Assembly (NCBI GenBank): GCA_006386115.1
Contig: VFIW01000051.1
Location: 1-64,000, forward strand
DNA from: Globisporangium splendens
Lineage: Eukaryota; Oomycota; Peronosporomycetes; Pythiales; Pythiaceae
Reading direction: 5' to 3'
Length of the DNA stretch: 64,000 nt
Part shown: in pieces, positions 1-31,762 of the stretch
Position numbering within the stretch: the stretch's first letter is position 1
Layout of the letters: each line of letters opens with the position of its first letter
Translations under genes and position numbers: made by a program
Notes under the pieces: generated by a model
What the model saw: the letters and a program-made list of their open reading frames with translations, nothing else
Databases searched by the model: none
Told to the model about the DNA's origin: nothing

Positions 1-32
1 CCGTCTTTCCAAGTCCAAGCCACTTAATCACT

Positions 33-1282
33 ATGGTCCAGATCGCCAAACTCCTCATTGGGTCAGCGCTCGCCACCTGCGCGCTCGTCGATGCCCACCC
101 AGGCCAGCCGCAGCACGTCAAGACCACTGCCGAGCAAGCACACCATCGAATGCTCATGCAGAGCAACCAGCGAGCTCTTGCAGCGTGCGCCAACTCGGGC
201 TATGCGCGCGAACTCCGCGACCGCACCATCGCGCGTCGTCTCGCCACGGTTGAGCAATTGCGTAACGAAGTTGCGGGCCGACGACGCCTCGCTGCCTCGA
301 CCGTACTGGGGAAGGACCACAAGAGCACCAGCGTCACGAGCACGACTGCTGATGCTGCAACGCTGCTCGGAACCACCCCCAAGTGCTTCCTCGAACCCGA
401 GGTCACCCAGGGACCGTACTACGTCAGCGGTGAGCTCGTACGCACTGACATTAAGGAGACACAAAAGGGGATCGACTTGACTGCGGAGCTCCAAATCATC
501 GACGTCAACACGTGCACCCCCGTCAAGGACTACTACGTGGACTTTTGGCACTGCAACGCCACGGGCGTGTACTCGGGCTCGTCGCCAGTGGCAACGGTAA
601 CAGCGCCGATCTGTCCAACGCGAACGCGACATTCCTGCGAGGACTCGCAGCGACGAACGCTGACGGCATTGTGGCCTTCAAGACGATTTTTCCGGGGCAT
701 TACACGTCGCGCACGACGCATATTCACGTACTCGGCTCCCACGACGGCACGCTCCAATCAAACAACACGTACACGGGCGGCAAGGTTGCGAGCGTCGGCC
801 AGCTCTTCTTCGACCAGAGCCTCATCACGTCGGTGGAGGCGACGGACGTGTACAAGGTGAACACGCAAGCGATCACGCAAAACTCAGCCGACACGATCTT
901 TGGTGAAGAAGTGGTGGGCGATTTTGACCCCGTGATGAACTACGCGCTGCTCGGCAACTCGGTGACGGACGGCATCTTTGCCTGGATCTCCACTGGCGTC
1001 AATCGGACGGTCTCCAAGACCGTTGCGGCTGCAGCGACTTTAACGGCAAACGGAGGCGTCGCGTCGTCGACGACGACCACTGGTGGTGGTGCTGGCGGTC
1101 CTCCCACGGGAGCACCAAATGGAGAACCGAACTCGACGACGCCTACCACAACGTCTACTGCAACGCCTACGACAACTCCTACGCCAACGCCATCGGCGAC
1201 GACCAGCTCTGTGCCAGCAGCGGTCGCTGGATCGGTGCTCGCTAGTCTTATGATCTGTCTGAGCGCATTGCTTCTTCAGTAA
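33..1282 (+). pseudogene. D1: intradiol dioxygenase-like, single frameshift
   Basis: Secreted intradiol ring-cleavage dioxygenase-like protein (PF00775 type). The ATG at 33 starts a signal peptide ending in DAHPGQPQH, so the predicted mature protein begins with His. The frame runs through KCFLEPEVTQGPYYVSGE and NATGVYSG, then breaks near 575-580. The rest (VASGNGNSADL, PGHYTSRTTHIHV) is one frame over and ends at 1282 with a Thr/Pro-rich stretch and a hydrophobic GPI-anchor-like tail. Comparison with paralogues implies loss of one base after the VYSG motif. The right arm carries the same break. It is either a fixed pseudogene or a consensus error copied into both arms. The core promoter lies before base 1. 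Confidence 0.85.
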
Positions 1283-1432
1283 GCTAAGCGATCATGCTTG
1301 CTCCGACTAAGCGACACATTAGACTACTGGACAAAAAACGAAGGCTATGATCGCAAACTTTCGAGAAGATAGCATGCAAATTTACTCATATATATGTATT
1401 TCTTATGGACCGAGGCAGACACTCTTATCACC

Positions 1433-2644
1433 TTAATGGAAAAGCATGGCACTCAGAATCGCGAGAGCGGCAACGGCGGCTGAACCAATGTGAGCGGATG
1501 TTCCACTTGGAATCGGGACTGCGCTCGCAGGCCCTCCTACGGCACCCCCGGCATTTCCACCCACAGCATCCGGACCTGTGCTGCTGCCATTGCTAGCGGA
1601 CACTGGTCCCGTGACCCCCGCTCGCGCAGTGAGCGTTTCCGCAGCTGACACCTCGATCGAGGCAGTCATGTCGATGCCAACAGAGATCCACGCGAAGATG
1701 CCGTCAGCCACAGTGTCCCCGAGGAGGGTATACTCCATCACGGGGTCAAAGTCGTTGGCAGCAGACTGGGTGAAGATCGAGTCGTCTCGGTTCAAAGTGA
1801 GTCGTTGCTGGTTTGTCATGTACACGGGCGTGGCTTCCACCTCCGAGATGAGATCCTGGTCGAAAAAGATCTGGCCGACGTGCGAAACAGAGCCACCAGA
1901 GTACGTCTGGTTGGGAAGCAACGTGCCGCCGTGAGTTCCGAGGATGTGGACGTGGATTGCGCGACCGGTGTAATGACCAGGAAACTTGGTCACGAATGAC
2001 ACGACACCATTCGCATCCGTCGGAGACAGCCCTCGACCAAACGTATTGTCCCGGTTGCTGGTATCAGCGCGGTTTCCGTTGCCTCGCGCGACCACACCAG
2101 AGTAGACGCCTGTGGAGTTGCAGTGCCAGAAGTCGATGTACAGGTCCTCGACCGCAGTGCACGTGTTGACGTCGATGATCTGGAGCTCGGCGTAGAGATC
2201 GACGCCCGCTTGTTCTTCCCGGATATCGTTGCGGATGAACTCGCCGTTGACGTAGTATGGGCCTTCAGTCACCTCGGGTTCGAGGACGCACTTTGGGTCC
2301 GTTCCAAAGAGCGTCGCAGCGTCAGTGTTCCGAGTGATCCCACTGAGTGTCGACCGATGACTTGTCGCGAGTACCGTACTGGCACTCAATCGTCTGCGCG
2401 CCGCGACTTCGTCACGCAGTTTGTCGACGTGGGCAGCACGTCGCGAGATGGCTTGTTCCTTGAGCTTGCGGACGTGGGGCGAGTTCGCACATTCCTTCAG
2501 CGAGCGGTGCGCATTGGCCTGGAAAAGCGCTCGCTTCGCAGCGTCCACACCATGCTCCTGGTCGCGAGCTCCACGGTGTGCTGCGGCTGGAGCAACGACG
2601 AAGGCGAGCGACAGCACCGCGAGTAGCTGACGGAGAAGCACCAT
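1433..2644 (-). CDS. D2: secreted intradiol dioxygenase-like protein
   Basis: Intact 403-aa member of the cluster, convergent with D1. It has a signal peptide at residues 1-22, followed by HRGARDQEH, so the mature N-terminal His is kept but the usual HPG is changed. It carries the family core KCVLEPEVTEGPYYVNGE, the Tyr of STGVYSG and the PGHYTGRAIHVHI block, which supplies the second Tyr and two His. These are the expected Fe(III) ligands of intradiol dioxygenases. The tail is Gly/Ser-rich and ends in a hydrophobic helix, suggesting GPI anchoring. The substrate is unknown; catechol-type aromatics are typical for the family. Mirror copy at 22302-23513. Confidence 0.9.
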   Translation of the reverse strand: MVLLRQLLAVLSLAFVVAPAAAHRGARDQEHGVDAAKRALFQANAHRSLKECANSPHVRKLKEQAISRRAAHVDKLRDEVAARRRLSASTVLATSHRSTLSGITRNTDAATLFGTDPKCVLEPEVTEGPYYVNGEFIRNDIREEQAGVDLYAELQIIDVNTCTAVEDLYIDFWHCNSTGVYSGVVARGNGNRADTSNRDNTFGRGLSPTDANGVVSFVTKFPGHYTGRAIHVHILGTHGGTLLPNQTYSGGSVSHVGQIFFDQDLISEVEATPVYMTNQQRLTLNRDDSIFTQSAANDFDPVMEYTLLGDTVADGIFAWISVGIDMTASIEVSAAETLTARAGVTGPVSASNGSSTGPDAVGGNAGGAVGGPASAVPIPSGTSAHIGSAAVAALAILSAMLFH

Positions 2645-3722
2645 TGCTGGGAGGATCGGGAGGCAGCTTGGTGACGGCGAGATGCAAAATGGCGAGTGGC
2701 AGAAGAAGGAACGAGCAGCGTGATGAATCCTGAAAGGCTCCAGTCAAGCAAGCCATTGACGCGCGGCTTTTGCTGCATGGTAATCATCGGGCGGAGTGAC
2801 TGGCTTCCTTTTCGTATGTGAGACCGCAACATCATAACCTTTTTATAGTTGCTTGAATGTAACCATTTGCCTTCTTATTTGTGGTTGATTGTGCGACATA
2901 TTCACTATAAAGAGGCAGATCTTGACTGGATCCCACTGTTTGGATTTGCTCGGATGAAGCGAGAGGATCGTCTGGAAAAACCAAAATTAAACACGACGAT
3001 CTGAGCAACAGCCGGATGGTGAAAAAGCACACACCGGTTGAGAAACAACAGCAGCAGCGAACTGTGAAACCACGCGATGCAACGACACGTCGCCAGTGGC
3101 CGACGCGATCTCTGGGATGGCAACCAATTGATACAACAGCTCCTTTACCAGAACCCCTCAACTTTTTCTCAGGTTTAACCTGAGCCCAAGGTGTTATAGT
3201 ATATATCGTGCTGGCATGGAACATCACTTGAAGCGTCGTGTTTTCCCTCGTCTAGCAGAATCACATCCTTCGCGTGCACCAGAATGAATCAGTTCCGACT
3301 CCAGAGTCCCAATTCCCAGAGTTTCAGACAATCGTTTGTCCTCGCCTCCGGTACGCTCTCAGCTATGCACTCGACAACGAACCAGACATGGTGGACTCCC
3401 TCGTCACGATAGACGTAATCCTGTCGCGCTCCGCACATGAATGCTCAGCGTAGCTTGTAACACTAGCAGATTCTATTCATCGTAGATAGACTGCGTCCTT
3501 GTGGCTGAAGGAAGAGCCCAGCCTAACTTGCAAACAATTTGAGGTATCTTTACCCCTGAAAATGAGAAAAATACCACCAGCAAACTTCTATTTTGTGTGG
3601 AAAACTAAAATTCAAAAAGTGTTTTTGAATTTCAGTTCTGCACTTTTTTTCGATACTATTCTTCAAGGCTGCGTCCGAAGAATGCACAACCGACTAAGGT
3701 GCCCACTGTTCAGAATGAAAAA
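2645..3722. other. Intergenic region, D2 upstream and D3 downstream
   Basis: Apart from the D2 core promoter I see no supported gene. The open frames lack signal peptide, domain or codon-pattern support. 3480-3720 is notably AT-rich. Confidence 0.6.
2681..2700 (-). promoter_or_regulatory. Core promoter of D2
   Basis: On the minus strand this reads CACTCGCCATTTTGC, about 40-55 nt upstream of the ATG at 2644. It resembles the oomycete initiator plus flanking element (CTCATTyy followed by CAwTTT). Mirror at 22246-22265. Confidence 0.55.
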
Positions 3723-4982
3723 TCAAAAACCTACTGCAACAACGATACTGTCATGCGAATGGACCCAGCGACAGTAGCTGCTGGTGCCGCTGGAGGCAAC
3801 TGGAGACCCGCTGACTACCGTTGCCGCAGGGCTATTACTGTTGCTGTTACTGCTGGTATTGCTGCTGCCGGTGGTGGTGCTGGGCGTTTCAGGCGAAGTA
3901 CGTTCATTAGCCCCTTTCATACCATCAGAGGCACCACTCGCTGCGACCATCGCTCGCAGTGAGCGTAGCTGCTGCCGACACCGTCTTGGAGATCGTCGTA
4001 TCAACACCGATGGAGATCCACGCAAAGATACCGTCTTCGACCGAGTCCCCGAGGAGAACGTACTCCATGACAGGGTCAAAACCCGAAGCTGCCGACTCGC
4101 TGAGGATGGTGTCCGCCGAGTTGAGTGTGATGGACTGAGTGTTCACTGCGTACTTGGACGTAGCCTCCACTTCGGTGATAAGATCTTGGTCGAAGAAGAT
4201 CTGGCCGACGTGAGCGGCTTTGCCTCCCGAGTAGGTCTTGTTGGCGAGCACGGTGCCATCGTGGGACCCAAGCACATGGATGTGTGTAGCACGGCCGGTG
4301 TAGTGTCCTGGGAAGGTCGTCGTGAACGACACGATCCCACTCGAGTCCGTCGGTGCGAGACCGCGGTTGAAAGTCTTGTCGATGTTGGTCGTGTCTTTGC
4401 TGTTGCCATTTCCTTCTGCGATTACGCCAGCGTAGACCCCTGTGGTGTTGCAATGCCAGAAGTCCACGTAGAGGTTCTGAACTGGTTTGAACGAGTTTAT
4501 GTCGATCATCTGGAGGTCGACGTACAGATTGATTCCGGGCTGATTTCACGGATATCGTTGCAGATCAGCTCGCCACTTACGTAGTACGGTCCTTGGGTGA
4601 CTTCGGGTTCCAAGACACACTTTGGAGTAGTTCCGAAGAGAACGCTTGGGCTTGAGGAGACACTTATCCCAGTAAGGTCGGACTGATGGTTCGTTGCAAG
4701 CACAGTTGCCGCAGTCAGCCGCCTGGTAGCTTGCTCTTGTTGTAGTTGCTCTACCTTCAGCATGCGCTGGTTATGGATTTGCTCTTGGAGCTTTCTGACA
4801 TGAGGAGAGTTGGCACACGCTGCAAGGGATCTCTTGCTAGTCTCCACCAAAAGTCGTCGCTGTTCACTTGCAGTGACTGAATGCACATGGCTTGGTTCGT
4901 CGCCCGGGTGAGCTGATGTCAAGTTGGCAAGAGCAAAAGCACACAGTGCGATTGCGGTGAGGAAGTTGCCGATCTGAGCCAT
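3723..4982 (-). pseudogene. D3: intradiol dioxygenase-like, two frameshifts
   Basis: The ATG at 4982 opens a signal peptide ending in TSAHPGDEPSH. The first frame runs to GELICNDIRE and then breaks near 4530-4550, where one base is missing relative to the paralogues; it stops at 4506. The second frame (from about 4530 down to 3925) has NTTGVYAG and PGHYTGRATHIHV. A second shift near 3953 puts the Ser/Thr-rich tail into another frame, ending at 3723. Positions 3951-4395 are identical to the matching part of D6, and the second shift sits at the edge of that tract. The right arm has the same damage, so this is probably a pseudogene. Confidence 0.85.
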
Positions 4983-5544
4983 GGCTCGACAGGCAGTGTG
5001 CTGCAGCGCGTAGTTTACGTTTTGTACCCGCTAGAGGGAAACTGCAAAGTGATCTCCGTTCTCCTGACAACTTCTTTGGCCATGGCAGAGAACTTGAATT
5101 TGTCAGCGTATAACTTGACGTGCTTCTCCTCCCCAAACCAGCTGTTTTTAGACGCAGTGTATCGTTTCTATTCAAACGTTGATATTCCGCCATGACGCTG
5201 AAACAGCAACAAAAGAGCCACATTTAGCGACCAGGCAGAACAAATCTCATACCAAGTAACTGAAATCTACTGCCACTTTACTCTTGGCTTCAACGTTTCA
5301 GAAAATGAAAAATGGGAACCATCGTCAAGCACACGGACATTTAAACAATTGGACTTCATTTGAGATGGAAGAAAAACTTGCACGACTGTAACTGAATCAG
5401 CTGTCTCAACTACTTTAGTCGATCCAAATTCGCATCAAAAATGTAGTTGTATGCTTACAAGAACAGTCACCATGCTATCTCCACAATCGCAGGAATCGTT
5501 TTCCCGAGGGGAATATCTCACACCACAAAACACTCACTTCTTAG
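4983..5544. other. Intergenic region between D3 and D4
   Basis: D3 upstream and D4 downstream sequence. No supported gene; AT-rich from about 5220. Confidence 0.6.
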
Positions 5545-6840
5545 CTACACGCGACGAGATTGCACACACGCACTCGGAGCCGAGGTGGTCGATGCTTCCG
5601 AAGCGGCGGACGACGAGCTAGTGGTCGAAGCAGCAGTAGGAGCCGTCACTTCCGACGACGCAGGAGCACCGCTCACGCTTCCAGAAGGTGGTGGTCCCAT
5701 GCTGCCGCCGCCGAAACCAGATCCGCTTGGAGGAGCTCCGCCCATGCTGCCCGATGGACCGTTGCCACCACCACCGCTCATACCGTTCGACGCGTTCATC
5801 ACGCCACCGTCCGCCGTCAGCGTCGCCGCGCCAGTCACCGTCTTCGAGATCGTCATGTCGACACCAACCGAGATCCACGCGAACACGCCGTCTTCGATCG
5901 AGTCTCCGAGCAAAGCGTACTCCATGACCGGGTCAAATCCCGACGCCGTCTCCTCCGCGAAAATCGAGTCGGCCGAGTTGAGCGTGAGGGACTGCTTGTT
6001 GACGCTGTAGGCCGACGTCGCCTCCACCTCGGTGATAAGATCTTGGTCGAAGAAGAGCTGACCGACGCTCGCGGTCTTGCCCCCCGAGTACGTGTTGTTC
6101 GCGAGCACGGTGCCGTCGTGCTGTCCGAGGATGTGGATGTGGGTCGCGCGGGACGTGTAGTGGCCTGGGAACGTCGTGATGAAGTTGACGAGTCCGTCGG
6201 CGTCCGTTGGCGCGAGACCGCGGTTGAAGGTCTTGTCGACGTTGGTCAAGTCGGAGCTGTCGCCGTTGCCGCTCGCGACCACACCGGCGTAGACCCCCGT
6301 GGAGTTGCAGTGCCAGAAGTCGACGTAGTAGTCTTCCACGGGGGTGCACGTGTTGACGTCGATGAACTGGATCTCGGCGTACAGGTCGACGCCGGCTTGG
6401 GTCTCGCGGATGTCGTTGCGGATGAGCTCACCCGTGACGTAGTACGGTCCCTGGGTGACCTCGGGTTCGAGGATGCACTTGGGGTCGGTTCCGAAGAGCG
6501 TGGTTGGGTCCGTGTCCACGGTGACGTCGGTGAGGTTGGTCTTGTGGCTCGTGGCGAGCACGTCGGCAGCAGCGAGGCGTCGACGCGCGGCTTGTTCTTG
6601 GCGGAGTTGCTGCACCTTGGCGGCACGGCGCGCGACGGTGCGTTCCTGGAGCTTGCGAGCGTGGGGCGAGTTGGCGCAGGCCTTGAGGGAGCGCTGGGCA
6701 TTGGCGTGGAAGAGCTTGCGGTGGGCGATCTCGGCGGCGGACTTGACGTGGTGCTGCTGACCAGGGTGGGCCGAGACTGAGTCGGAGAGCGCGAAGGTGG
6801 CGAGAGCGGCCGCGCCGAGGAGGGTAGAGAGGTGAACCAT
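5545..6840 (-). CDS. D4: secreted intradiol dioxygenase-like protein
   Basis: 431-aa protein. I chose the ATG at 6840, although the frame stays open to 7038, because a signal peptide starts here (MVHLSTLLGAAALATFALSD, cleavage before HPGQQHH) and the promoter block at 6921-6938 lies about 80 nt upstream. It has the core KCILEPEVTQGPYYVTGE, Tyr in STGVYAG, and Tyr plus His-x-His in PGHYTSRATHIHI. The C-terminus is a Gly/Ser/Pro-rich stretch with no hydrophobic end, so unlike D1, D2 and D6 it is probably released rather than GPI-anchored. It is very GC-rich, which opens long spurious antisense frames. It is one half of the nested inverted pair with D5; mirror copy at 18106-19401. Confidence 0.92.
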   Translation of the reverse strand: MVHLSTLLGAAALATFALSDSVSAHPGQQHHVKSAAEIAHRKLFHANAQRSLKACANSPHARKLQERTVARRAAKVQQLRQEQAARRRLAAADVLATSHKTNLTDVTVDTDPTTLFGTDPKCILEPEVTQGPYYVTGELIRNDIRETQAGVDLYAEIQFIDVNTCTPVEDYYVDFWHCNSTGVYAGVVASGNGDSSDLTNVDKTFNRGLAPTDADGLVNFITTFPGHYTSRATHIHILGQHDGTVLANNTYSGGKTASVGQLFFDQDLITEVEATSAYSVNKQSLTLNSADSIFAEETASGFDPVMEYALLGDSIEDGVFAWISVGVDMTISKTVTGAATLTADGGVMNASNGMSGGGGNGPSGSMGGAPPSGSGFGGGSMGPPPSGSVSGAPASSEVTAPTAASTTSSSSAASEASTTSAPSACVQSRRV

Positions 6841-6920
6841 TCCGCTAACGAGGTAGGTGAGAAGGTTCTTGTTGGTGATGCGGAGGAGCTCCTTGTTGCT
6901 GGTGGTCTTGTGTGGCCGAA

Positions 6921-6938
6921 GGCAAATTGTGGAATGAG
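6921..6938 (-). promoter_or_regulatory. Core promoter of D4
   Basis: Minus-strand CTCATTCCACAATTTGCC is a near-perfect oomycete Inr plus flanking-promoter-region match, giving a 5' leader of about 90 nt. Confidence 0.75.
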
Positions 6939-8272
6939 TTGGAGACTGAGTGAAATACGTCGTGGAATGGTATCTTGTCGAGACGATTGCCGGATGTCTG
7001 TCTTGGTCTAATAAACAAGTAATCTTGCCGTTAGTCACTGACTAGTTCTTGTGTTTTGTGGCTCGTAGGTGGTCGATCTGCAATTCGGACGGTGTCATCT
7101 GCAAATCCCGTTGGTTCAGTTTGATGAGGATCAACGAGATCGAGGTCGCTGAAAGCGCCTTTTTTCTGCACTGTTGATCTCGTGGACAGCAAAACGAAAA
7201 TGGCACTGTCGGTAGCATGTGTCAGCCGTTGGACAAGATGGACGCATTTTTGGTGAATAAAACGACAAACGCAATGCAACCTCAGATTGTTTGATGCAAG
7301 CAAAGCTGCGCGCAAACAATTTCTTGAATATGGCAGCTTCGACTTGTCGTACCTTTATAGTATATGTTATATCCGATTCCGATTTGCTCGACCTCTATGC
7401 TCTGATATAAGTGTAGCCCTATCCCTTTCACACACCTGCTGGGCTGCACAGCACACACACACTCTGGAGTCCAGAGTATAGAATCCTTTCATCCCCCAAA
7501 CGCACCTCGAACCGGACCTCCACGGACGTGGACATGAAGTTGAGCCGCAAACGCCTGGCATGCTTCCTTCTGCACGCCATCAAAGGCGACGACGAGGTGT
7601 CTGCGATTGGGTATGAATATGGATTACAAAGTCATATCGAGGCACAACCCAATCAGAGCGTGACGGACATGGGCAAAACAAATGGGTGAATTTGAAGTTA
7701 GGAAACAATGAATCGATACACCGCACAAGATTTCTCCTCTAAGGTGCTGCCAGTTTGACAAGATAGTCTAAATTATTCCAAGAATTGCGAGCGACGGTGT
7801 TAACTGTTTGTTCAGAGCGAACCGGAGTATATTATTAATAGCCCACGATTAATGCAGCCGCACAACAACACAGCCGAGCGTTCGATTCGGCAAGTGCCTG
7901 TCCACGCAACCGCTCAGATCTGACGTGCTGGTCTCGAGTCCTACGGACCGAGCATGAGATGCGCATATGGACACATTCCACAACTGTCCTTTCTCTTGCA
8001 CCGAGTTCTCAACTCGACGTTCTGGAGATCCAAGTGGGCTCGTCGTCTCAGCTGTTCCAAACAGATCGCACGATCGTCGGGAGACACACGGACTCACATC
8101 GATTCTTCTATAGAGATAGAAGTGCCTGGATTCCTAACAGAGCACCACAAAATAGAGGGCGTGGATAGCAAATGAACCAACGGCAAGATTACTTGTTTAT
8201 TAGACCAAGACAGACATCCGGCAATCGTCTCGACAAGATACCATTCCACGACGTATTTCACTCAGTCTCCAA

Positions 8273-8290
8273 CTCATTCCACAATTTGCC
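8273..8290 (+). promoter_or_regulatory. Core promoter of left-arm D5
   Basis: Same CTCATTCCACAATTTGCC block as D4. It is intact here even though the following gene is corrupted. Confidence 0.7.
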
Positions 8291-8374
8291 TTCGGCCACA
8301 CAAGACCACCAGCAACAAGGAGCTCCTCCGCCATCACCAACACTAACCTTCTCACCCCTGCCCTCGTTATCGGA

Positions 8375-9701
8375 ATGGTTTCCCCTCTCTACCCCCTCGG
8401 CGCGGCCGGCTCTCGCCACTTCGCGCTCTCCTCTTTCACTCTCGGCCCCACCCTGGTCAGCAGCACCAAGTCAAGTCCTGCCGCCGGATCGCCCACCGCA
8501 AGCTTCCCCCCTTTTTTCCACTCCAATGCCCTCAGCGCCTCCCTCAAGGCCTGCACCAACTGTCGGCCACCCCCCCAACGCCGCAAGCTCCAGGAACGCA
8601 ACCGTCGCGCGCCATTGCCGCCAAGGTGCACACTCCGCCAAGAACACGCCGCGCGTCGACGCTCGGCTGCCGACGTGCTCGCCACGAGGGCCACAGACCA
8701 TTCTCACCGACGTCACCGTGGACACGGACCGCGACCACGCTCTGCGGAACGACCCCAAGTGCATCCTCGAACCCGAGTCCACCCCGACCGTCTACGTCAG
8801 TGGTGAGCTCATCCGCAACGACATCCTCGATACCCAAGCGGGTCGACCTTTAACGCCGAGATCCAGTTCATCGACGTCAACACGTGCCCCCCGTGGAAGA
8901 AACTACTACGTCGACTTCTGGCACTGCACTCCACAGGGGGGCTAGCGGTGTTGTCCGCGAGCGGCCACGGCGACAGCTCCGACTTGCCAAGTCGACAAGA
9001 CCTGACAACCGCCGGGTCTCGTCGCCAACGGAACGCTCTGACGGACTCGTCAACTTCATCACGACGTTCCCAGCCACTACACTTCCCGCGCGACCCACAT
9101 CCACTCCTCGGACAGCACGACGGCACCGGGTGGCTCGCTAACAACATCGTACTACATCGGGGGGCAATACCGTCGAGCGTCGGTCAGCCTTCTTCGACCA
9201 AGATTCTTATCACCTGAGGTGAGGCGACGTCGGCCTACAGCGTCCAAGCAAGCAGTCCCTCAGCGCTCAACTCTGCGACTCGCTTGTCCGCGGAGGCTAC
9301 GGCGTCGGGATTTGACTCCGGTCATGTAGTCCGCTTTGCGCGGACTCGATCGAAGACGGGCGTGTTCGCGTGTATCTCGGTTTGGTGTCGACATGACGAC
9401 CGATACGGTGACTGGCGCGGCGACGCTGACGGCGGACGGTGGCGTGATGAACGCGTCGAACGGTATGAGCGGTGGTGGTGGCAACGGTCCATCGGGCAGC
9501 ATGGGCGGAGCTCCTCCAAGCGGATCTGGTTTCGGCGGCGGCAGCATGGGACCACCACCTTCTGGAAGCGTGAGCGGTGCTCCTGCGTCGTCGGAAGTGA
9601 CGGCTCCTACTGCTGCTTCGACCACTAGCTCGTCGTCCGCCGCTTCGGAAGCATCGACCACCTCGGCTCCGAGTGCGTGTGTGCAATCTCGTCGCGTGTA
9701 A
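8375..9701 (+). pseudogene. D5 (left arm): degraded intradiol dioxygenase copy
   Basis: Collinear with the intact D5' gene at 16575-15280 but with dozens of substitutions and single- or few-base indels, so no frame runs for long. Recognisable pieces are PKCILEPES, VYVSGELIRNDI, NYYVDFWHC and, in frame at the end, the Gly/Ser/Pro-rich tail (about 9400-9701). Damage begins near 8331, affects all codon positions and includes homopolymer-length changes. The last 300 nt match D4 rather than D5'. This is either real decay or a stretch of poor consensus; the single-arm, indel-rich pattern favours poor consensus. Confidence 0.85.
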
Positions 9702-12122: not shown

Positions 12123-12280
12123 GCTGAGGTTCTTTTACCCTGTGTGTGTATAAAGCAAACGACAATTGTTGCATATTTCATTTCAACGATGACAAAAGAG
12201 TAGTTTGAAACATATTTCCGTTGTACTTGGTCGCTATTAGTATTGAGTTTTATTTAAAGCGTTTGCTCTGAAGATGAGAT

Positions 12281-12700: not shown

Positions 12701-12858
12701 ATCTCATCTTCAGAGCAAACGCTTTAAATAAAACTCAATACTAATAGCGACCAAGTACAACGGAAATATGTTTCAAACTACTCTTTTGTCATCGTTGAAA
12801 TGAAATATGCAACAATTGTCGTTTGCTTTATACACACACAGGATAAAAGAACCTCAGC

Positions 12859-14127: not shown

Positions 14128-15279
14128 TGTGGCAGAGCTTTCTTCGAAAGAAGCGGGGGTTGATCTTTCCGATGGACGGTAAATCTGGAAATGAGTGGAA
14201 AGGTGATCGCTCCAGTAGCAGCAGCACAGTAATGGGAAGTCATGTCAGTCGGTGACAACTCTTCGTATGCGATGTTTTCTGGACATGTCCCTTTTCTGTG
14301 CATCAGTTAAACCCCCAGAAGACTAACCTGACGAGACTCTCGTGCCACCGTAAACCGAAATTAAAACGATGTGCAAGATTTGATCAGCAGGTGCATAAAC
14401 GAGCCAAGTGGTCTAGTCATGTGTGACAGTGCGTACATTATTTGAGCTCGCCTCATTCCTCGAGTCACACACCGCAAAAATTTCTCCACTCGTCGACCGA
14501 GCAGACTCCAGCGCAGCTTCTGCGTGCTTGCTTTTCATTGCAGTATAGGACGTTCAAGCTGGATGGGACCTCCGCTGTCCTTCTTTCCTATGTGTTTGCG
14601 ACATCCTATTGTGATCGCCGTTTTGGAGGTCCATCTTGTGTGTTAGACAGACACTGTTTTGGTGGAGACGCATGATGGGACGTCTCGGAGAGAGGTGGCA
14701 GGGAGGATATCGATTCCGTAAAACACACACACAAAATACAAAAATCGTGGTGTGCATTGCAGCACCTCAGAGCTTAACCACGGAGGTTTGTTGCCTGGAT
14801 GGCGAGGGCCAAGGTGGCAAGAGCAAGAGGGCTCATGCCGCGTGATGCCTTCATAATGAAGTTGGTGGTAGATTGCTTGTACATGAGGTGGATGGCATGT
14901 AGCATGGTGCTGATGACCTTGTGGAGTGTGTACCAAACGGTAAAATAGACTCGATGGTCTTCGTCGGACACCGCCATTTGACACGATCAATTATTACAAA
15001 AGGTCTATCGTCCGAGTGTGTTTTGGCTTGACGAAGTACTTCAGAGCGTTCATTCACACCGCCACCAAATCGACATTTGTTACACAGAAACAACGAGCAC
15101 AATGTTATTTGGACAAAAGAGAGTAAATCGGATCAAAAATGGACCCTTAACATCAATCCAAGGTTTTGCTGAAAAAAATGATGTTATAAGTATACAAGAG
15201 CAGACGCTTCGGTATCCCTTCAATCGAACACAACTATGCTCTAGGAATATCACTACACCGTCAAACATTCGTTTCTCGC
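14128..15279. other. Intergenic region between D6' and D5'
   Basis: Mirror of 9702-10853. It contains the D6' core promoter and no other supported feature. Confidence 0.5.
14178..14195 (-). promoter_or_regulatory. Core promoter of D6'
   Basis: Minus-strand CTCATTTCCAGATTTACC, identical to the D6 promoter block. Confidence 0.65.
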
Positions 15280-16575
15280 TTACACGCGACGAGATTGCAC
15301 ACACGCGCTCGGAGCCGAGGTGGTCGATGCCTCTGAAGCAGCGGACGATGAGCTAGTGGTCGAAGCAGCAGTAGGAGCCGTCACTTCCGACGATGCAGGA
15401 GCACCGCCCACGCTTCCAGAAGGTGGTGGTCCCATGCTGCCGCCGCCGAAACCAGATCCGCTTGGAGGAGCTCCGCCCATGCTACCCGATGGACCGTTGC
15501 CACCACCACCGCTCATACCGTTCGACGCATTCATCACGCCACCGTCCGCCGTCAGCGTCGCCGCGCCAGTCACCGTCTTCGAGATCGTCATGTCGACACC
15601 CACCGAGATCCACGCGAACACGCCGTCTTCGATCGAGTCTCCGAGCAAAGCGTACTCCATGACCGGGTCAAATCCCGACGCCGTCTCCTCCGCGAAAATC
15701 GAGTCGGCCGAGTTGAGCGTGAGGGACTGCTTGTTGACGCTGTAGGCCGACGTCGCCTCCACCTCGGTGATAAGATCTTGGTCGAAGAAGAGCTGACCGA
15801 CGCTCGCGGTCTTGCCCCCCGAGTACGTGTTGTTCGCGAGCACGGTGCCGTCGTGCTGTCCGAGGATGTGGATGTGGGTCGCGCGGGACGTGTAGTGGCC
15901 TGGGAACGTCGTGATGAAGTTGACGAGTCCGTCGGCGTCCGTTGGCGCGAGACCGCGGTTGAAGGTCTTGTCGACGTTGGTCAAGTCGGAGCTGTCGCCG
16001 TTGCCGCTCGCGACCACACCGGCGTAGACCCCCGTGGAGTTGCAGTGCCAGAAGTCGACGTAGTAGTCTTCCACGGGGGTGCACGTGTTGACGTCGATGA
16101 ACTGGATCTCGGCGTACAGGTCGACGCCGGCTTGGGTCTCGCGGATGTCGTTGCGGATGAGCTCACCCGTGACGTAGTACGGTCCCTGGGTGACCTCGGG
16201 TTCGAGGATGCACTTGGGGTCGGTTCCGAAGAGCGTGGTCGGGTCCGTGTCCACGGTGACGTCGGTGAGGTTGGTCTTGTGGCTCGTGGCGAGCACGTCG
16301 GCAGCAGCGAGGCGTCGACGCGCGGCTTGTTCTTGGCGGAGTTGCTGCACCTTGGCGGCACGGCGCGCGACGGTGCGTTCCTGGAGCTTGCGAGCGTGGG
16401 GCGAGTTGGCGCAGGCCTTGAGGGAGCGCTGGGCATTGGCGTGGAAGAGCTTGCGGTGGGCGATCTCGGCGGCGGACTTGACGTGGTGCTGCTGACCAGG
16501 GTGGGCCGAGACTGAGTCGGAGAGCGCGAAGGTGGCGAGAGCGGCCGCGCCGAGGAGGGTAGAGAGGTGAACCAT
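15280..16575 (-). CDS. D5': secreted intradiol dioxygenase-like protein
   Basis: Intact 431-aa counterpart of the degraded left-arm D5. It has the same layout as D4: signal peptide, HPGQQHH mature start, KCILEPEVTQGPYYVTGE, Tyr in STGVYAG, the PGHYTSRATHIHI ligand block and a Gly/Ser/Pro-rich non-hydrophobic tail. It differs from D4' by one Gly/Ser in the tail. It is divergent to D4' across 1.5 kb, with mirrored promoters (16656-16673 here and 18008-18025 for D4'). Confidence 0.93.
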   Translation of the reverse strand: MVHLSTLLGAAALATFALSDSVSAHPGQQHHVKSAAEIAHRKLFHANAQRSLKACANSPHARKLQERTVARRAAKVQQLRQEQAARRRLAAADVLATSHKTNLTDVTVDTDPTTLFGTDPKCILEPEVTQGPYYVTGELIRNDIRETQAGVDLYAEIQFIDVNTCTPVEDYYVDFWHCNSTGVYAGVVASGNGDSSDLTNVDKTFNRGLAPTDADGLVNFITTFPGHYTSRATHIHILGQHDGTVLANNTYSGGKTASVGQLFFDQDLITEVEATSAYSVNKQSLTLNSADSIFAEETASGFDPVMEYALLGDSIEDGVFAWISVGVDMTISKTVTGAATLTADGGVMNASNGMSGGGGNGPSGSMGGAPPSGSGFGGGSMGPPPSGSVGGAPASSEVTAPTAASTTSSSSAASEASTTSAPSACVQSRRV

Positions 16576-16655
16576 TCCGCTAACGAGGTAGGTGAGAAGG
16601 TTCTTGTTGGTGATGCGGAGGAGCTCCTTGTTGCTGGTGGTCTTGTGTGGCCGAA

Positions 16656-16673
16656 GGCAAATTGTGGAATGAG
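16656..16673 (-). promoter_or_regulatory. Core promoter of D5'
   Basis: Minus-strand CTCATTCCACAATTTGCC, the same initiator plus flanking block as D4. Confidence 0.75.
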
Positions 16674-18007
16674 TTGGAGACTGAGTGAAATACGTCGTGG
16701 AATGGTATCTTGTCGAGACGATTGCCGGATGTCTGTCTTGGTCTAATAAACAAGTAATCTTGCCGTTGGTTCATTTGCTATCCACGCCCTCTATTTTGTG
16801 GTGCTCTGTTAGGAATCCAGGCACTTCTATCTCTATAGAAGAATCGATGTGAGTCCGTGTGTCTCCCGACGATCGTGCGATCTGTTTGGAACAGCTGAGA
16901 CGACGAGCCCACTTGGATCTCCAGAACGTCGAGTTGAGAACTCGGTGCAAGAGAAAGGACAGTTGTGGAATGTGTCCATATGCGCATCTCATGCTCGGTC
17001 CGTAGGACTCGAGACCAGCACGTCAGATCTGAGCGGTTGCGTGGACAGGCACTTGCCGAATCGAACGCTCGGCTGTGTTGTTGTGCGGCTGCATTAATCG
17101 TGGGCTATTAATAATATACTCCGGTTCGCTCTGAACAAACAGTTAACACCGTCGCTCGCAATTCTTGGAATAATTTAGACTATCTTGTCAAACTGGCAGC
17201 ACCTTAGAGGAGAAATCTTGTGCGGTGTATCGATTCATTGTTTCCTAACTTCAAATTCACCCATTTGTTTTGCCCATGTCCGTCACGCTCTGATTGGGTT
17301 GTGCCTCGATATGACTTTGTAATCCATATTCATACCCAATCGCAGACACCTCGTCGTCGCCTTTGATGGCGTGCAGAAGGAAGCATGCCAGGCGTTTGCG
17401 GCTCAACTTCATGTCCACGTCCGTGGAGGTCCGGTTCGAGGTGCGTTTGGGGGATGAAAGGATTCTATACTCTGGACTCCAGAGTGTGTGTGTGCTGTGC
17501 AGCCCAGCAGGTGTGTGAAAGGGATAGGGCTACACTTATATCAGAGCATAGAGGTCGAGCAAATCGGAATCGGATATAACATATACTATAAAGGTACGAC
17601 AAGTCGAAGCTGCCATATTCAAGAAATTGTTTGCGCGCAGCTTTGCTTGCATCAAACAATCTGAGGTTGCATTGCGTTTGTCGTTTTATTCACCAAAAAT
17701 GCGTCCATCTTGTCCAACGGCTGACACATGCTACCGACAGTGCCATTTTCGTTTTGCTGTCCACGAGATCAACAGTGCAGAAAAAAGGCGCTTTCAGCGA
17801 CCTCGATCTCGTTGATCCTCATCAAACTGAACCAACGGGATTTGCAGATGACACCGTCCGAATTGCAGATCGACCACCTACGAGCCACAAAACACAAGAA
17901 CTAGTCAGTGACTAACGGCAAGATTACTTGTTTATTAGACCAAGACAGACATCCGGCAATCGTCTCGACAAGATACCATTCCACGACGTATTTCACTCAG
18001 TCTCCAA

Positions 18008-18025
18008 CTCATTCCACAATTTGCC
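18008..18025 (+). promoter_or_regulatory. Core promoter of D4'
   Basis: CTCATTCCACAATTTGCC, about 80-95 nt upstream of the ATG at 18106. Confidence 0.75.
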
Positions 18026-18105
18026 TTCGGCCACACAAGACCACCAGCAACAAGGAGCTCCTCCGCATCACCAACAAGAACCTTCTCACCTACCTCGTTA
18101 GCGGA

Positions 18106-19401
18106 ATGGTTCACCTCTCTACCCTCCTCGGCGCGGCCGCTCTCGCCACCTTCGCGCTCTCCGACTCAGTCTCGGCCCACCCTGGTCAGCAGCACCACGT
18201 CAAGTCCGCCGCCGAGATCGCCCACCGCAAGCTCTTCCACGCCAATGCCCAGCGCTCCCTCAAGGCCTGCGCCAACTCGCCCCACGCTCGCAAGCTCCAG
18301 GAACGCACCGTCGCGCGCCGTGCCGCCAAGGTGCAGCAACTCCGCCAAGAACAAGCCGCGCGTCGACGCCTCGCTGCTGCCGACGTGCTCGCCACGAGCC
18401 ACAAGACCAACCTCACCGACGTCACCGTGGACACGGACCCAACCACGCTCTTCGGAACCGACCCCAAGTGCATCCTCGAACCCGAGGTCACCCAGGGACC
18501 GTACTACGTCACGGGTGAGCTCATCCGCAACGACATCCGCGAGACCCAAGCCGGCGTCGACCTGTACGCCGAGATCCAGTTCATCGACGTCAACACGTGC
18601 ACCCCCGTGGAAGACTACTACGTCGACTTCTGGCACTGCAACTCCACGGGGGTCTACGCCGGTGTGGTCGCGAGCGGCAACGGCGACAGCTCCGACTTGA
18701 CCAACGTCGACAAGACCTTCAACCGCGGTCTCGCGCCAACGGACGCCGACGGACTCGTCAACTTCATCACGACGTTCCCAGGCCACTACACGTCCCGCGC
18801 GACCCACATCCACATCCTCGGACAGCACGACGGCACCGTGCTCGCGAACAACACGTACTCGGGGGGCAAGACCGCGAGCGTCGGTCAGCTCTTCTTCGAC
18901 CAAGATCTTATCACCGAGGTGGAGGCGACGTCGGCCTACAGCGTCAACAAGCAGTCCCTCACGCTCAACTCGGCCGACTCGATTTTCGCGGAGGAGACGG
19001 CGTCGGGATTTGACCCGGTCATGGAGTACGCTTTGCTCGGAGACTCGATCGAAGACGGCGTGTTCGCGTGGATCTCGGTTGGTGTCGACATGACGATCTC
19101 GAAGACGGTGACTGGCGCGGCGACGCTGACGGCGGACGGTGGCGTGATGAACGCGTCGAACGGTATGAGCGGTGGTGGTGGCAACGGTCCATCGGGCAGC
19201 ATGGGCGGAGCTCCTCCAAGCGGATCTGGTTTCGGCGGCGGCAGCATGGGACCACCACCTTCTGGAAGCGTGAGCGGTGCTCCTGCGTCGTCGGAAGTGA
19301 CGGCTCCTACTGCTGCTTCGACCACTAGCTCGTCGTCCGCCGCTTCGGAAGCATCGACCACCTCGGCTCCGAGTGCGTGTGTGCAATCTCGTCGCGTGTA
19401 G
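18106..19401 (+). CDS. D4': secreted intradiol dioxygenase-like protein
   Basis: Mirror of D4 with an identical 431-aa translation. The ATG at 18106 is preferred over the upstream in-frame ATG at 17908 because it begins the signal peptide and lies downstream of the promoter block. Predicted ligands and tail are as in D4. It is the nested-palindrome partner of D5'. Confidence 0.92.
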   Translation: MVHLSTLLGAAALATFALSDSVSAHPGQQHHVKSAAEIAHRKLFHANAQRSLKACANSPHARKLQERTVARRAAKVQQLRQEQAARRRLAAADVLATSHKTNLTDVTVDTDPTTLFGTDPKCILEPEVTQGPYYVTGELIRNDIRETQAGVDLYAEIQFIDVNTCTPVEDYYVDFWHCNSTGVYAGVVASGNGDSSDLTNVDKTFNRGLAPTDADGLVNFITTFPGHYTSRATHIHILGQHDGTVLANNTYSGGKTASVGQLFFDQDLITEVEATSAYSVNKQSLTLNSADSIFAEETASGFDPVMEYALLGDSIEDGVFAWISVGVDMTISKTVTGAATLTADGGVMNASNGMSGGGGNGPSGSMGGAPPSGSGFGGGSMGPPPSGSVSGAPASSEVTAPTAASTTSSSSAASEASTTSAPSACVQSRRV

Positions 19402-19963
19402 CTAAGAAGTGAGTGTTTTGTGGTGTGAGATATTCCCCTCGGGAAAACGATTCCTGCGATTGTGGAGATAGCATGGTGACTGTTCTTGTAAGCATACAAC
19501 TACATTTTTGATGCGAATTTGGATCGACTAAAGTAGTTGAGACAGCTGATTCAGTTACAGTCGTGCAAGTTTTTCTTCCATCTCAAATGAAGTCCAATTG
19601 TTTAAATGTCCGTGTGCTTGACGATGGTTCCCATTTTTCATTTTCTGAAACGTTGAAGCCAAGAGTAAAGTGGCAGTAGATTTCAGTTACTTGGTATGAG
19701 ATTTGTTCTGCCTGGTCGCTAAATGTGGCTCTTTTGTTGCTGTTTCAGCGTCATGGCGGAATATCAACGTTTGAATAGAAACGATACACTGCGTCTAAAA
19801 ACAGCTGGTTTGGGGAGGAGAAGCACGTCAAGTTATACGCTGACAAATTCAAGTTCTCTGCCATGGCCAAAGAAGTTGTCAGGAGAACGGAGATCACTTT
19901 GCAGTTTCCCTCTAGCGGGTACAAAACGTAAACTACGCGCTGCAGCACACTGCCTGTCGAGCC
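19402..19963. other. Intergenic region between D4' and D3'
   Basis: Mirror of 4983-5544; no supported gene. Confidence 0.6.
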
Positions 19964-21223
19964 ATGGCTCAGATCGGCAACTTCCTCACCGCAATCGCAC
20001 TGTGTGCTTTTGCTCTTGCCAACTTGACATCAGCTCACCCGGGCGACGAACCAAGCCATGTGCATTCAGTCACTGCAAGTGAACAGCGACGACTTTTGGT
20101 GGAGACTAGCAAGAGATCCCTTGCAGCGTGTGCCAACTCTCCTCATGTCAGAAAGCTCCAAGAGCAAATCCATAACCAGCGCATGCTGAAGGTAGAGCAA
20201 CTACAACAAGAGCAAGCTACCAGGCGGCTGACTGCGGCAACTGTGCTTGCAACGAACCATCAGTCCGACCTTACTGGGATAAGTGTCTCCTCAAGCCCAA
20301 GCGTTCTCTTCGGAACTACTCCAAAGTGTGTCTTGGAACCCGAAGTCACCCAAGGACCGTACTACGTAAGTGGCGAGCTGATCTGCAACGATATCCGTGA
20401 AATCAGCCCGGAATCAATCTGTACGTCGACCTCCAGATGATCGACATAAACTCGTTCAAACCAGTTCAGAACCTCTACGTGGACTTCTGGCATTGCAACA
20501 CCACAGGGGTCTACGCTGGCGTAATCGCAGAAGGAAATGGCAACAGCAAAGACACGACCAACATCGACAAGACTTTCAACCGCGGTCTCGCACCGACGGA
20601 CTCGAGTGGGATCGTGTCGTTCACGACGACCTTCCCAGGACACTACACCGGCCGTGCTACACACATCCATGTGCTTGGGTCCCACGATGGCACCGTGCTC
20701 GCCAACAAGACCTACTCGGGAGGCAAAGCCGCTCACGTCGGCCAGATCTTCTTCGACCAAGATCTTATCACCGAAGTGGAGGCTACGTCCAAGTACGCAG
20801 TGAACACTCAGTCCATCACACTCAACTCGGCGGACACCATCCTCAGCGAGTCGGCAGCTTCGGGTTTTGACCCTGTCATGGAGTACGTTCTCCTCGGGGA
20901 CTCGGTCGAAGACGGTATCTTTGCGTGGATCTCCATCGGTGTTGATACGACGATCTCCAAGACGGTGTCGGCAGCAGCTACGCTCACTGCGAGCGATGGT
21001 CGCAGCGAGTGGTGCCTCTGATGGTATGAAAGGGGCTAATGAACGTACTTCGCCTGAAACGCCCAGCACCACCACCGGCAGCAGCAATACCAGCAGTAAC
21101 AGCAACAGTAATAGCCCTGCGGCAACGGTAGTCAGCGGGTCTCCAGTTGCCTCCAGCGGCACCAGCAGCTACTGTCGCTGGGTCCATTCGCATGACAGTA
21201 TCGTTGTTGCAGTAGGTTTTTGA
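19964..21223 (+). pseudogene. D3': intradiol dioxygenase-like, two frameshifts
   Basis: Exact mirror of D3. The first frame (19964-20440) has the signal peptide and N-terminal half. The second (ending 21021) has NTTGVYAG and PGHYTGRATHIHV. The Ser/Thr-rich tail continues in a third frame to 21223. Both breaks are at the same bases as in the left arm. Confidence 0.85.
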
Positions 21224-22301
21224 TTTTTCATTCTGAACAGTGGGCACCTTAGTCGGTTGTGCATTCTTCGGACGCAGCCTTGAAGAATAGTATCGAAAAA
21301 AAGTGCAGAACTGAAATTCAAAAACACTTTTTGAATTTTAGTTTTCCACACAAAATAGAAGTTTGCTGGTGGTATTTTTCTCATTTTCAGGGGTAAAGAT
21401 ACCTCAAATTGTTTGCAAGTTAGGCTGGGCTCTTCCTTCAGCCACAAGGACGCAGTCTATCTACGATGAATAGAATCTGCTAGTGTTACAAGCTACGCTG
21501 AGCATTCATGTGCGGAGCGCGACAGGATTACGTCTATCGTGACGAGGGAGTCCACCATGTCTGGTTCGTTGTCGAGTGCATAGCTGAGAGCGTACCGGAG
21601 GCGAGGACAAACGATTGTCTGAAACTCTGGGAATTGGGACTCTGGAGTCGGAACTGATTCATTCTGGTGCACGCGAAGGATGTGATTCTGCTAGACGAGG
21701 GAAAACACGACGCTTCAAGTGATGTTCCATGCCAGCACGATATATACTATAACACCTTGGGCTCAGGTTAAACCTGAGAAAAAGTTGAGGGGTTCTGGTA
21801 AAGGAGCTGTTGTATCAATTGGTTGCCATCCCAGAGATCGCGTCGGCCACTGGCGACGTGTCGTTGCATCGCGTGGTTTCACAGTTCGCTGCTGCTGTTG
21901 TTTCTCAACCGGTGTGTGCTTTTTCACCATCCGGCTGTTGCTCAGATCGTCGTGTTTAATTTTGGTTTTTCCAGACGATCCTCTCGCTTCATCCGAGCAA
22001 ATCCAAACAGTGGGATCCAGTCAAGATCTGCCTCTTTATAGTGAATATGTCGCACAATCAACCACAAATAAGAAGGCAAATGGTTACATTCAAGCAACTA
22101 TAAAAAGGTTATGATGTTGCGGTCTCACATACGAAAAGGAAGCCAGTCACTCCGCCCGATGATTACCATGCAGCAAAAGCCGCGCGTCAATGGCTTGCTT
22201 GACTGGAGCCTTTCAGGATTCATCACGCTGCTCGTTCCTTCTTCTGCCACTCGCCATTTTGCATCTCGCCGTCACCAAGCTGCCTCCCGATCCTCCCAGC
22301 A
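21224..22301. other. Intergenic region between D3' and D2'
   Basis: Mirror of 2645-3722. Nothing is supported except the D2' core promoter at 22246-22265. Confidence 0.6.
22246..22265 (+). promoter_or_regulatory. Core promoter of D2'
   Basis: CACTCGCCATTTTGC within this block resembles the oomycete initiator plus flanking element, 37-56 nt before the ATG at 22302. Confidence 0.55.
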
Positions 22302-23513
22302 ATGGTGCTTCTCCGTCAGCTACTCGCGGTGCTGTCGCTCGCCTTCGTCGTTGCTCCAGCCGCAGCACACCGTGGAGCTCGCGACCAGGAGCATGGTGTG
22401 GACGCTGCGAAGCGAGCGCTTTTCCAGGCCAATGCGCACCGCTCGCTGAAGGAATGTGCGAACTCGCCCCACGTCCGCAAGCTCAAGGAACAAGCCATCT
22501 CGCGACGTGCTGCCCACGTCGACAAACTGCGTGACGAAGTCGCGGCGCGCAGACGATTGAGTGCCAGTACGGTACTCGCGACAAGTCATCGGTCGACACT
22601 CAGTGGGATCACTCGGAACACTGACGCTGCGACGCTCTTTGGAACGGACCCAAAGTGCGTCCTCGAACCCGAGGTGACTGAAGGCCCATACTACGTCAAC
22701 GGCGAGTTCATCCGCAACGATATCCGGGAAGAACAAGCGGGCGTCGATCTCTACGCCGAGCTCCAGATCATCGACGTCAACACGTGCACTGCGGTCGAGG
22801 ACCTGTACATCGACTTCTGGCACTGCAACTCCACAGGCGTCTACTCTGGTGTGGTCGCGCGAGGCAACGGAAACCGCGCTGATACCAGCAACCGGGACAA
22901 TACGTTTGGTCGAGGGCTGTCTCCGACGGATGCGAATGGTGTCGTGTCATTCGTGACCAAGTTTCCTGGTCATTACACCGGTCGCGCAATCCACGTCCAC
23001 ATCCTCGGAACTCACGGCGGCACGTTGCTTCCCAACCAGACGTACTCTGGTGGCTCTGTTTCGCACGTCGGCCAGATCTTTTTCGACCAGGATCTCATCT
23101 CGGAGGTGGAAGCCACGCCCGTGTACATGACAAACCAGCAACGACTCACTTTGAACCGAGACGACTCGATCTTCACCCAGTCTGCTGCCAACGACTTTGA
23201 CCCCGTGATGGAGTATACCCTCCTCGGGGACACTGTGGCTGACGGCATCTTCGCGTGGATCTCTGTTGGCATCGACATGACTGCCTCGATCGAGGTGTCA
23301 GCTGCGGAAACGCTCACTGCGCGAGCGGGGGTCACGGGACCAGTGTCCGCTAGCAATGGCAGCAGCACAGGTCCGGATGCTGTGGGTGGAAATGCCGGGG
23401 GTGCCGTAGGAGGGCCTGCGAGCGCAGTCCCGATTCCAAGTGGAACATCCGCTCACATTGGTTCAGCCGCCGTTGCCGCTCTCGCGATTCTGAGTGCCAT
23501 GCTTTTCCATTAA
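22302..23513 (+). CDS. D2': secreted intradiol dioxygenase-like protein
   Basis: Mirror of D2 with an identical 403-aa translation: signal peptide, HRGARDQEH start, family core, PGHYTGRAIHVHI ligand block and GPI-like tail. It is convergent with D1' across 150 nt. Confidence 0.9.
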   Translation: MVLLRQLLAVLSLAFVVAPAAAHRGARDQEHGVDAAKRALFQANAHRSLKECANSPHVRKLKEQAISRRAAHVDKLRDEVAARRRLSASTVLATSHRSTLSGITRNTDAATLFGTDPKCVLEPEVTEGPYYVNGEFIRNDIREEQAGVDLYAELQIIDVNTCTAVEDLYIDFWHCNSTGVYSGVVARGNGNRADTSNRDNTFGRGLSPTDANGVVSFVTKFPGHYTGRAIHVHILGTHGGTLLPNQTYSGGSVSHVGQIFFDQDLISEVEATPVYMTNQQRLTLNRDDSIFTQSAANDFDPVMEYTLLGDTVADGIFAWISVGIDMTASIEVSAAETLTARAGVTGPVSASNGSSTGPDAVGGNAGGAVGGPASAVPIPSGTSAHIGSAAVAALAILSAMLFH

Positions 23514-23663
23514 GGTGATAAGAGTGTCTGCCTCGGTCCATAAGAAATACATATATATGAGTAAATTTGCATGCTATCTTCTCGAAAGTTTGCGATCATA
23601 GCCTTCGTTTTTTGTCCAGTAGTCTAATGTGTCGCTTAGTCGGAGCAAGCATGATCGCTTAGC

Positions 23664-24913
23664 TTACTGAAGAAGCAATGCGCTCAGACAGATCATAAGA
23701 CTAGCGAGCACCGATCCAGCGACCGCTGCTGGCACAGAGCTGGTCGTCGCCGATGGCGTTGGCGTAGGAGTTGTCGTAGGCGTTGCAGTAGACGTTGTGG
23801 TAGGCGTCGTCGAGTTCGGTTCTCCATTTGGTGCTCCCGTGGGAGGACCGCCAGCACCACCACCAGTGGTCGTCGTCGACGACGCGACGCCTCCGTTTGC
23901 CGTTAAAGTCGCTGCAGCCGCAACGGTCTTGGAGACCGTCCGATTGACGCCAGTGGAGATCCAGGCAAAGATGCCGTCCGTCACCGAGTTGCCGAGCAGC
24001 GCGTAGTTCATCACGGGGTCAAAATCGCCCACCACTTCTTCACCAAAGATCGTGTCGGCTGAGTTTTGCGTGATCGCTTGCGTGTTCACCTTGTACACGT
24101 CCGTCGCCTCCACCGACGTGATGAGGCTCTGGTCGAAGAAGAGCTGGCCGACGCTCGCAACCTTGCCGCCCGTGTACGTGTTGTTTGATTGGAGCGTGCC
24201 GTCGTGGGAGCCGAGTACGTGAATATGCGTCGTGCGCGACGTGTAATGCCCCGGAAAAATCGTCTTGAAGGCCACAATGCCGTCAGCGTTCGTCGCTGCG
24301 AGTCCTCGCAGGAATGTCGCGTTCGCGTTGGACAGATCGGCGCTGTTACCGTTGCCACTGGCGACGAGCCCGAGTACACGCCCGTGGCGTTGCAGTGCCA
24401 AAAGTCCACGTAGTAGTCCTTGACGGGGGTGCACGTGTTGACGTCGATGATTTGGAGCTCCGCAGTCAAGTCGATCCCCTTTTGTGTCTCCTTAATGTCA
24501 GTGCGTACGAGCTCACCGCTGACGTAGTACGGTCCCTGGGTGACCTCGGGTTCGAGGAAGCACTTGGGGGTGGTTCCGAGCAGCGTTGCAGCATCAGCAG
24601 TCGTGCTCGTGACGCTGGTGCTCTTGTGGTCCTTCCCCAGTACGGTCGAGGCAGCGAGGCGTCGTCGGCCCGCAACTTCGTTACGCAATTGCTCAACCGT
24701 GGCGAGACGACGCGCGATGGTGCGGTCGCGGAGTTCGCGCGCATAGCCCGAGTTGGCGCACGCTGCAAGAGCTCGCTGGTTGCTCTGCATGAGCATTCGA
24801 TGGTGTGCTTGCTCGGCAGTGGTCTTGACGTGCTGCGGCTGGCCTGGGTGGGCATCGACGAGCGCGCAGGTGGCGAGCGCTGACCCAATGAGGAGTTTGG
24901 CGATCTGGACCAT
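23664..24913 (-). pseudogene. D1': intradiol dioxygenase-like, single frameshift
   Basis: Mirror of D1, with the same one-base break after the VYSG motif near 24366-24371. The ATG at 24913 (MVQIAKLLIGSALATCALVD) starts the signal peptide. The frame is open further upstream to 25069, but the core promoter at 24969-24987 lies in that stretch, so the longer start is unlikely. The C-terminal part (VASGNGNSADL to the hydrophobic tail) is in a second frame ending at 23664. Confidence 0.85.
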
Positions 24914-24968
24914 AGTGATTAAGTGGCTTGGACTTGGAAAGACGGAAGGAGGAGCTGTTCTCGCTGAA

Positions 24969-24987
24969 GGCAAATGTGTGAATGAAG
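24969..24987 (-). promoter_or_regulatory. Core promoter of D1'
   Basis: Minus-strand CTTCATTCACACATTTGCC, about 55-75 nt before the ATG at 24913. It fits the oomycete initiator plus flanking element and decides the start. Confidence 0.7.

Positions 24988-31730: not shown

Positions 31731-31762
<32 letters not shown>

Follow-up and report, generated by a model that had tools for sequence, protein, structure and literature searches.

The dioxygenase cluster at the contig start

The stretch of DNA analysed here (the window, 64,000 bases) comprises bases 1-64000 of contig C145 (334,270 bases) in a 53.3-Mb draft assembly of 195 contigs, and its first 25 kb form a large palindrome carrying a cluster of intradiol-type dioxygenase genes. 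A preliminary description had placed the cluster in an oomycete, which is borne out, with Globisporangium splendens as the most likely source. Self-alignment of the window pairs 1-12280 with 24945-12701 in inverted orientation at 98.7% identity (60 mismatches and 75 gap openings), so that two high-identity inverted arms surround a spacer, and chance is ruled out for an inverted match of such size. The palindrome first seen in the sequence is thereby confirmed, including its unique loop of 420 nucleotides (nt), as the sole match of the loop (12281-12700) in the assembly is its own position. The arm length originally given, at least 12.2 kb, does not define the true outer limit of the arms, because it is set by the end of the contig: window and contig share their first base, no left flank can be seen beyond the left arm, and the inverted copy extends to the contig end. 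On the other side, the right outer arm (16616-24945, minus strand) runs on into a flank from 24946 onward, of which 24946-32900 matched only itself in the assembly.

Six dioxygenase loci per arm were found, arranged as mirror pairs in agreement with the first account. In the left arm, 32 nt precede the ATG that opens gene 1 (33-1279, plus strand, in two blocks at 33-437 and 527-1279; mirror 24913-23667), whose partner is the dioxygenase gene 1' (23667-24913, minus strand). Gene 2 (1436-2644, minus strand, 403 amino acids; mirror 22302-23510) pairs with the dioxygenase gene 2' (22302-23513, plus strand), and gene 3 (5548-6840, minus strand; mirror 18106-19398) with the dioxygenase gene 3' (18106-19401, plus strand). 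Between genes 2 and 3 lies a dioxygenase relic split across two frames (3946-4979, minus strand), as is its mirror copy (19967-21000, plus strand). Further inward, the left copy of gene 4 (approximately 8370-9705, plus strand) has a broken frame and its partner, gene 4' (15280-16575, minus strand), is intact and encodes 431 amino acids. Closest to the loop, gene 5 (10854-12122, plus strand, 422 amino acids) and gene 5' (12859-14127, minus strand) are convergent, and their proteins are 99.5% identical.

The description of the encoded proteins as secreted-looking intradiol-type dioxygenases held up; their N-termini look hydrophobic. Seven of the ten open reading frames tested matched the Dioxygenase_C family (PF00775) with E-values of 1e-5 to 4.1e-4, all seven below the Pfam gathering score, and no such match was obtained for the other three, all of them short; for protein P0003, PF00775 is listed in the protein database. 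Residues 120-316 of the gene 4' protein align with the intradiol dioxygenases 6bdj and 5vg2 (E ~7e-24), the motifs FPGHY and RxxHIH being common to it and 6bdj, and GPYY standing opposite GPYF; iron is presumably bound by two tyrosines and two histidines in these enzymes. These solved structures belong to intradiol ring-cleavage dioxygenases such as Tetur07g02040, which we take to be a spider mite protein. The oomycete proteins differ from it in having a Ser/Thr/Gly-rich tail, followed in some by a hydrophobic C-terminus (termini and tails were judged by eye, with no predictor). Judging from family membership, a role in the extracellular ring cleavage of catechol-type aromatics is likely. The search for relatives returned 1,198 matches, with oomycete and fungal proteins among the 120 listed. 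In a tree of 33 proteins, hand-picked from those 120, gene 5, gene 2 and a gene at 46 kb are each joined by one of the G. ultimum proteins chosen; the tree is silent on whether the mirror is real.

Three identity regimes along the arms

The two arms do not match uniformly. In the outer regime, the left outer arm (1-8330, plus strand) is letter for letter the same as 24945-16616. In the middle regime, a patch at 8331-9404 (1,074 nt, plus strand) differs from its clean counterpart at 15577-16615 (1,039 nt, minus strand, inside the intact gene 4') by 37 mismatches, 70 inserted and 35 deleted bases. In the inner regime, the left inner arm (9405-12280, plus strand) aligns without gaps to the right inner arm (12701-15576, minus strand) over 2,876 nt, with 17 clean substitutions (15 of them transitions) and no insertions or deletions (indels). 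Fourteen of these substitutions fall at 9452-9781 and three at 9782-12280. The preliminary contrast between an identical outer 8.3 kb and an inner 2.6 kb with few differences had overlooked the cluster of 14, and also the patch, which breaks left gene 4. At the inner rate of three differences in 2,499 nt, none in 8,330 nt would be expected with P ~4.5e-5, and as this is low at even the lower inner rate, the identity regime changes at the patch. Perfect identity begins exactly at the outer edge of the patch, within a gene body common to other copies.

Most events in the patch affect single bases (33 of 45 insertions and 29 of 32 deletions), only 3 of its 37 mismatches are transitions, and 17 of the 37 place T for G. 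Compared with what we take to be the error profile of uncorrected PacBio reads, the patch appears to be raw long-read sequence, and a seam with an uncorrected or chimeric-like profile hence lies where a join would be sought. Natural decay of left gene 4 into a pseudogene was considered as well and is unlikely, given few transitions (3/37) and mostly indels in the patch versus 15/17 transitions in the adjoining inner arm.

The surroundings of this candidate seam would fit a change of template. Over the length of the patch, just two sites (8733 and 9383, numbered along the left arm) distinguish gene 4' from gene 3 and its identical mirror 3', so that short reads would hardly separate them there. 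On the inner side of the patch, at 9452-9674, the left arm agrees with gene 3 and not with gene 4' at nine of nine sites; on the outer side, at the homology edge 8173-8178, it is gene-4'-like at four sites; and of the two diagnostic sites inside the patch, one is gene-3-like and one gene-4'-like. A mis-join within a multicopy gene would be expected to produce just this, a template switch in the patch and then 8,330 bases without a difference.

Further copies of the arm were searched for with 1-1400 and 2700-5400, every candidate being scored and self and mirror both recovered. These two (100%) were the only high-identity matches; the next best reached 67-74% over ~600-900 nt on contig C172, with short dispersed matches of up to 81% elsewhere. 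Within the second stretch, a dispersed repeat at 3203-3555 has matches of 72-79% on C137, C195, C147 and C126, and shorter ones on further contigs. In a six-frame search with the gene 4' protein, each of the 31 match rows fell on C145 or C172. These contigs might conceivably represent opposite ends of a single broken cluster. Beyond the window, C145 also holds an internal inverted pair, 69848-71448 and 73758-75358, with one mismatch in 1,601 nt (99.94%) around a 2,309-nt spacer, and homogenisation at the scale of a single inverted gene pair looks real on this contig, to judge from the alignment. The cluster itself is adjoined by a gene for a dyskerin/TruB-type pseudouridine synthase (28640-30175; Pfam DKCLD, TruB_N, TruB_C_2 and PUA). 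Farther along the window lies a tandem array at 40465-45889 (related copies from 38779), with a unit of ~1,294-1,304 bp, copies 94-99% alike and a strong GC skew; one open reading frame tested there, 38695-39717, had no Pfam match.

A second self-mirroring contig and presumed haplotypes

Contig C172, on which 60001-150000 and four small stretches were covered, carries a dioxygenase array of eight gene copies in alternating orientation at ~96-115 kb, with one more on either side; in six of the ten dioxygenase matches, the matched stretch contains one stop codon. This contig mirrors itself around 105.5 kb over a span of 1881-221758, with 91-98% identity at the places sampled, the mirror starting 1.9 kb off the contig end. 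The inner portion, 60621-104874 against 106098-150000, aligns in six blocks (41,140 aligned columns, 1,337 mismatches and 107 gap openings). Outward of it, 34414-38416 matches 177000-181000 at 98%, 10568-15564 matches 208000-213000 at 96%, and 1881-3000 matches 220638-221758 at 91%. For these three outer pairs no third copy of comparable identity was found, other matches being at 69-72% where long, and 30001-33000 had no match in a comparison confined to a limited set of DNA stretches. A spacer at 99624-100461 is out of mirror register, with a direct copy at 110145-110982 (99.8%) and an inverted one at 106097-105254 (96.3%), and the dense differences near the centre of the array coincide with spacers out of mirror orientation. 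Occurrence of the spacer in both orientations could reflect inversion between inverted copies or an arbitrary orientation chosen by the assembler. The contig end, C172:1-1991, consists of about three copies of a ~668-bp tandem repeat.

The window appears to come from the G. splendens strain rgcb-1 draft, a MaSuRCA hybrid assembly of 10.2 Gb of PacBio and 6.9 Gb of Illumina sequence, the PacBio data comprising 0.7 million reads, which implies a mean of ~14.6 kb (PMC7163027). Its read set is PRJNA548776. The 25 match rows of the proteasome family include three pairs that lie on different contigs and score the same or almost the same (C25/C192, C49/C112 and C144/C42); their 3,501-base surroundings align at 98.4%, 99.8% and 93.6-95.9%, respectively. 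This suggests haplotypes that were kept apart by the assembler and that could be folded together, although recent duplicates are possible. The divergence of the C172 arms lies about within this presumed-haplotype range, down to 91% identity at the outer end, and C172 is probably two haplotypes folded together.

Origin of the mirror and its consequences

In our assessment, the 12-kb palindrome is probably (at roughly 0.65) a contig-end assembly fold-back that grew on a smaller genuine feature; the inverted-duplicate assembly error, which the preliminary description had named as the alternative, thus becomes part of the leading interpretation. The genuine core would be an inverted pair with arms 9405-12280 and 12701-15576 around the 420-nt loop, situated in a cluster with partly inverted gene pairs. 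Uncorrected long-read sequence (8331-9404) would then have carried the assembly through the gene body common to genes 3, 3' and 4', and after this patch the outer left arm (1-8330) would be right-arm sequence used a second time. The contig-end position, the three regimes, the error profile of the patch and the common gene body are features of the assembled sequence, and from them we infer the mis-join itself. A fold-back of the outer arm is favoured because of the contig-end position, the exact identity starting from an error-rich patch and the larger fold on C172. We regard the inner inverted pair as probably real, since a similar pair lies inside C145 and others form the C172 array, and a second real template is indicated by the 17 substitutions between the inner arms and the unique loop. 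Contig-end and haplotype fold-backs are a known artefact class in draft long-read assemblies. The case of C145 resembles them in the inverted copy reaching the contig end, the exact identity, the unpolished-looking seam and the apparent separation of some haplotypes in the same draft, and differs from a plain fold-back in its inner arm, which has a sequence of its own next to a unique loop. No described example of a contig-end fold-back was named in the titles and abstract openings of the literature surveyed.

Several observations weigh against a fold-back. An assembler would likewise halt where the arm of a real palindrome ends on the outside; the left inner arm is no plain copy of the right one; and the near-identical inverted pair inside C145 argues that the mirror arrangement is partly genuine. 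The change from gene-3-like to gene-4'-like sequence could equally mark the end of a conversion tract, which would look no different. No raw patch was seen on C172 in the arm stretches profiled or near the centre of the array, so that the two contigs differ in this respect. Haplotype folding lacks support on C145, as no second haplotype of the flank 24946-32900 was found in the assembly, nor was one of 46940-54940, apart from short dispersed repeats. Finally, a survey of contig starts found no same-contig inverted copy, and fold-backs are hence not evidently common in the draft; the survey covered 7 of 20 starts fully and part of an eighth (with no listed row), 40 of 620 candidates were scored, and dispersed repeats dominate.

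The strongest competitor, albeit a rather doubtful one, is a genuine palindrome whose arms measure 12.3 kb or more, the outer 8.3 kb having recently been homogenised by arm-to-arm gene conversion and the patch being a poorly corrected stretch of a real copy. The end of the contig at the outer arm end, where the two exits look alike, would be expected of such a structure, and it would also accommodate the distinct sequence of the inner arm, the near-identical inverted gene pair inside C145 (1,601-nt arms, 99.94%) and the C172 array of inverted pairs, where a spacer occurs in either orientation, as expected from inversion events between such copies; moreover, both contigs found to bear the family, C145 and C172, mirror themselves. 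It accounts poorly for the abrupt transition, exactly at the error-rich patch, from 2,876 nt with 17 differences to 8,330 nt without any, and is disfavoured further by the absence of a left flank, the arm stopping at contig base 1, and by the lack of a high-identity copy of the outer-arm stretches 1-1400 and 2700-5400 on another contig. The earlier proposal that arm-to-arm conversion protects a 12-kb palindrome is therefore not supported as the leading interpretation, given the abrupt identity change at a raw-read-like patch and the contig-end arm.

Less likely again is an artefactual origin of the entire left arm, from a chimeric fold-back read or a reversed second haplotype, in which case genes 5 and 5' would be alleles; with respect to the outer arm, this overlaps with the favoured fold-back on a smaller inverted pair. 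An arm somewhat below the mean PacBio read of ~14.6 kb fits in one read, the inner divergence of 0.6% is inside the 0.2-6.4% range of the presumed haplotype pairs, and C172 resembles two haplotypes folded together. The loop, in contrast, consists of 420 unique bases with no adapter-like sequence, and a read with a missed adapter should have no more than that adapter at its fold. A missed SMRTbell adapter as the sole cause, in its simple form, is rejected in view of this loop and a best local score of 17/45 in the first 26 kb against what we take to be the adapter sequence.

An equally unlikely extension is that C145 (arms of at least 12 kb) and C172 (~100 kb or more) are true giant palindromes of nested inverted pairs with flipping spacers, in which conversion would maintain the copy number and identity of a secreted family. 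Gene-conversion palindromes of sex chromosomes, as in the mammalian Y and in willow, likewise have large inverted arms, a gene family and very high arm identity. On C145, however, the arms match less closely near the loop and are exactly identical beyond an error-rich patch, and continuity into a flank is seen only on the right. For willow, such sex-chromosome palindromes with gene conversion are reported, as far as title and abstract opening indicate (PMC7023750), and in the literature surveyed, no title or abstract opening named a palindrome in an oomycete. Were the palindromes of C145 and C172 real, they would constitute a case of inverted-repeat conversion outside sex chromosomes that is, to our knowledge, unusually large.

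Genes of the secreted dioxygenase family are probably overcounted in the draft, through mirrored copies on C145 and through two folded haplotypes on C172, so that counts of family expansion or inferences of gene conversion taken from this draft would mislead.

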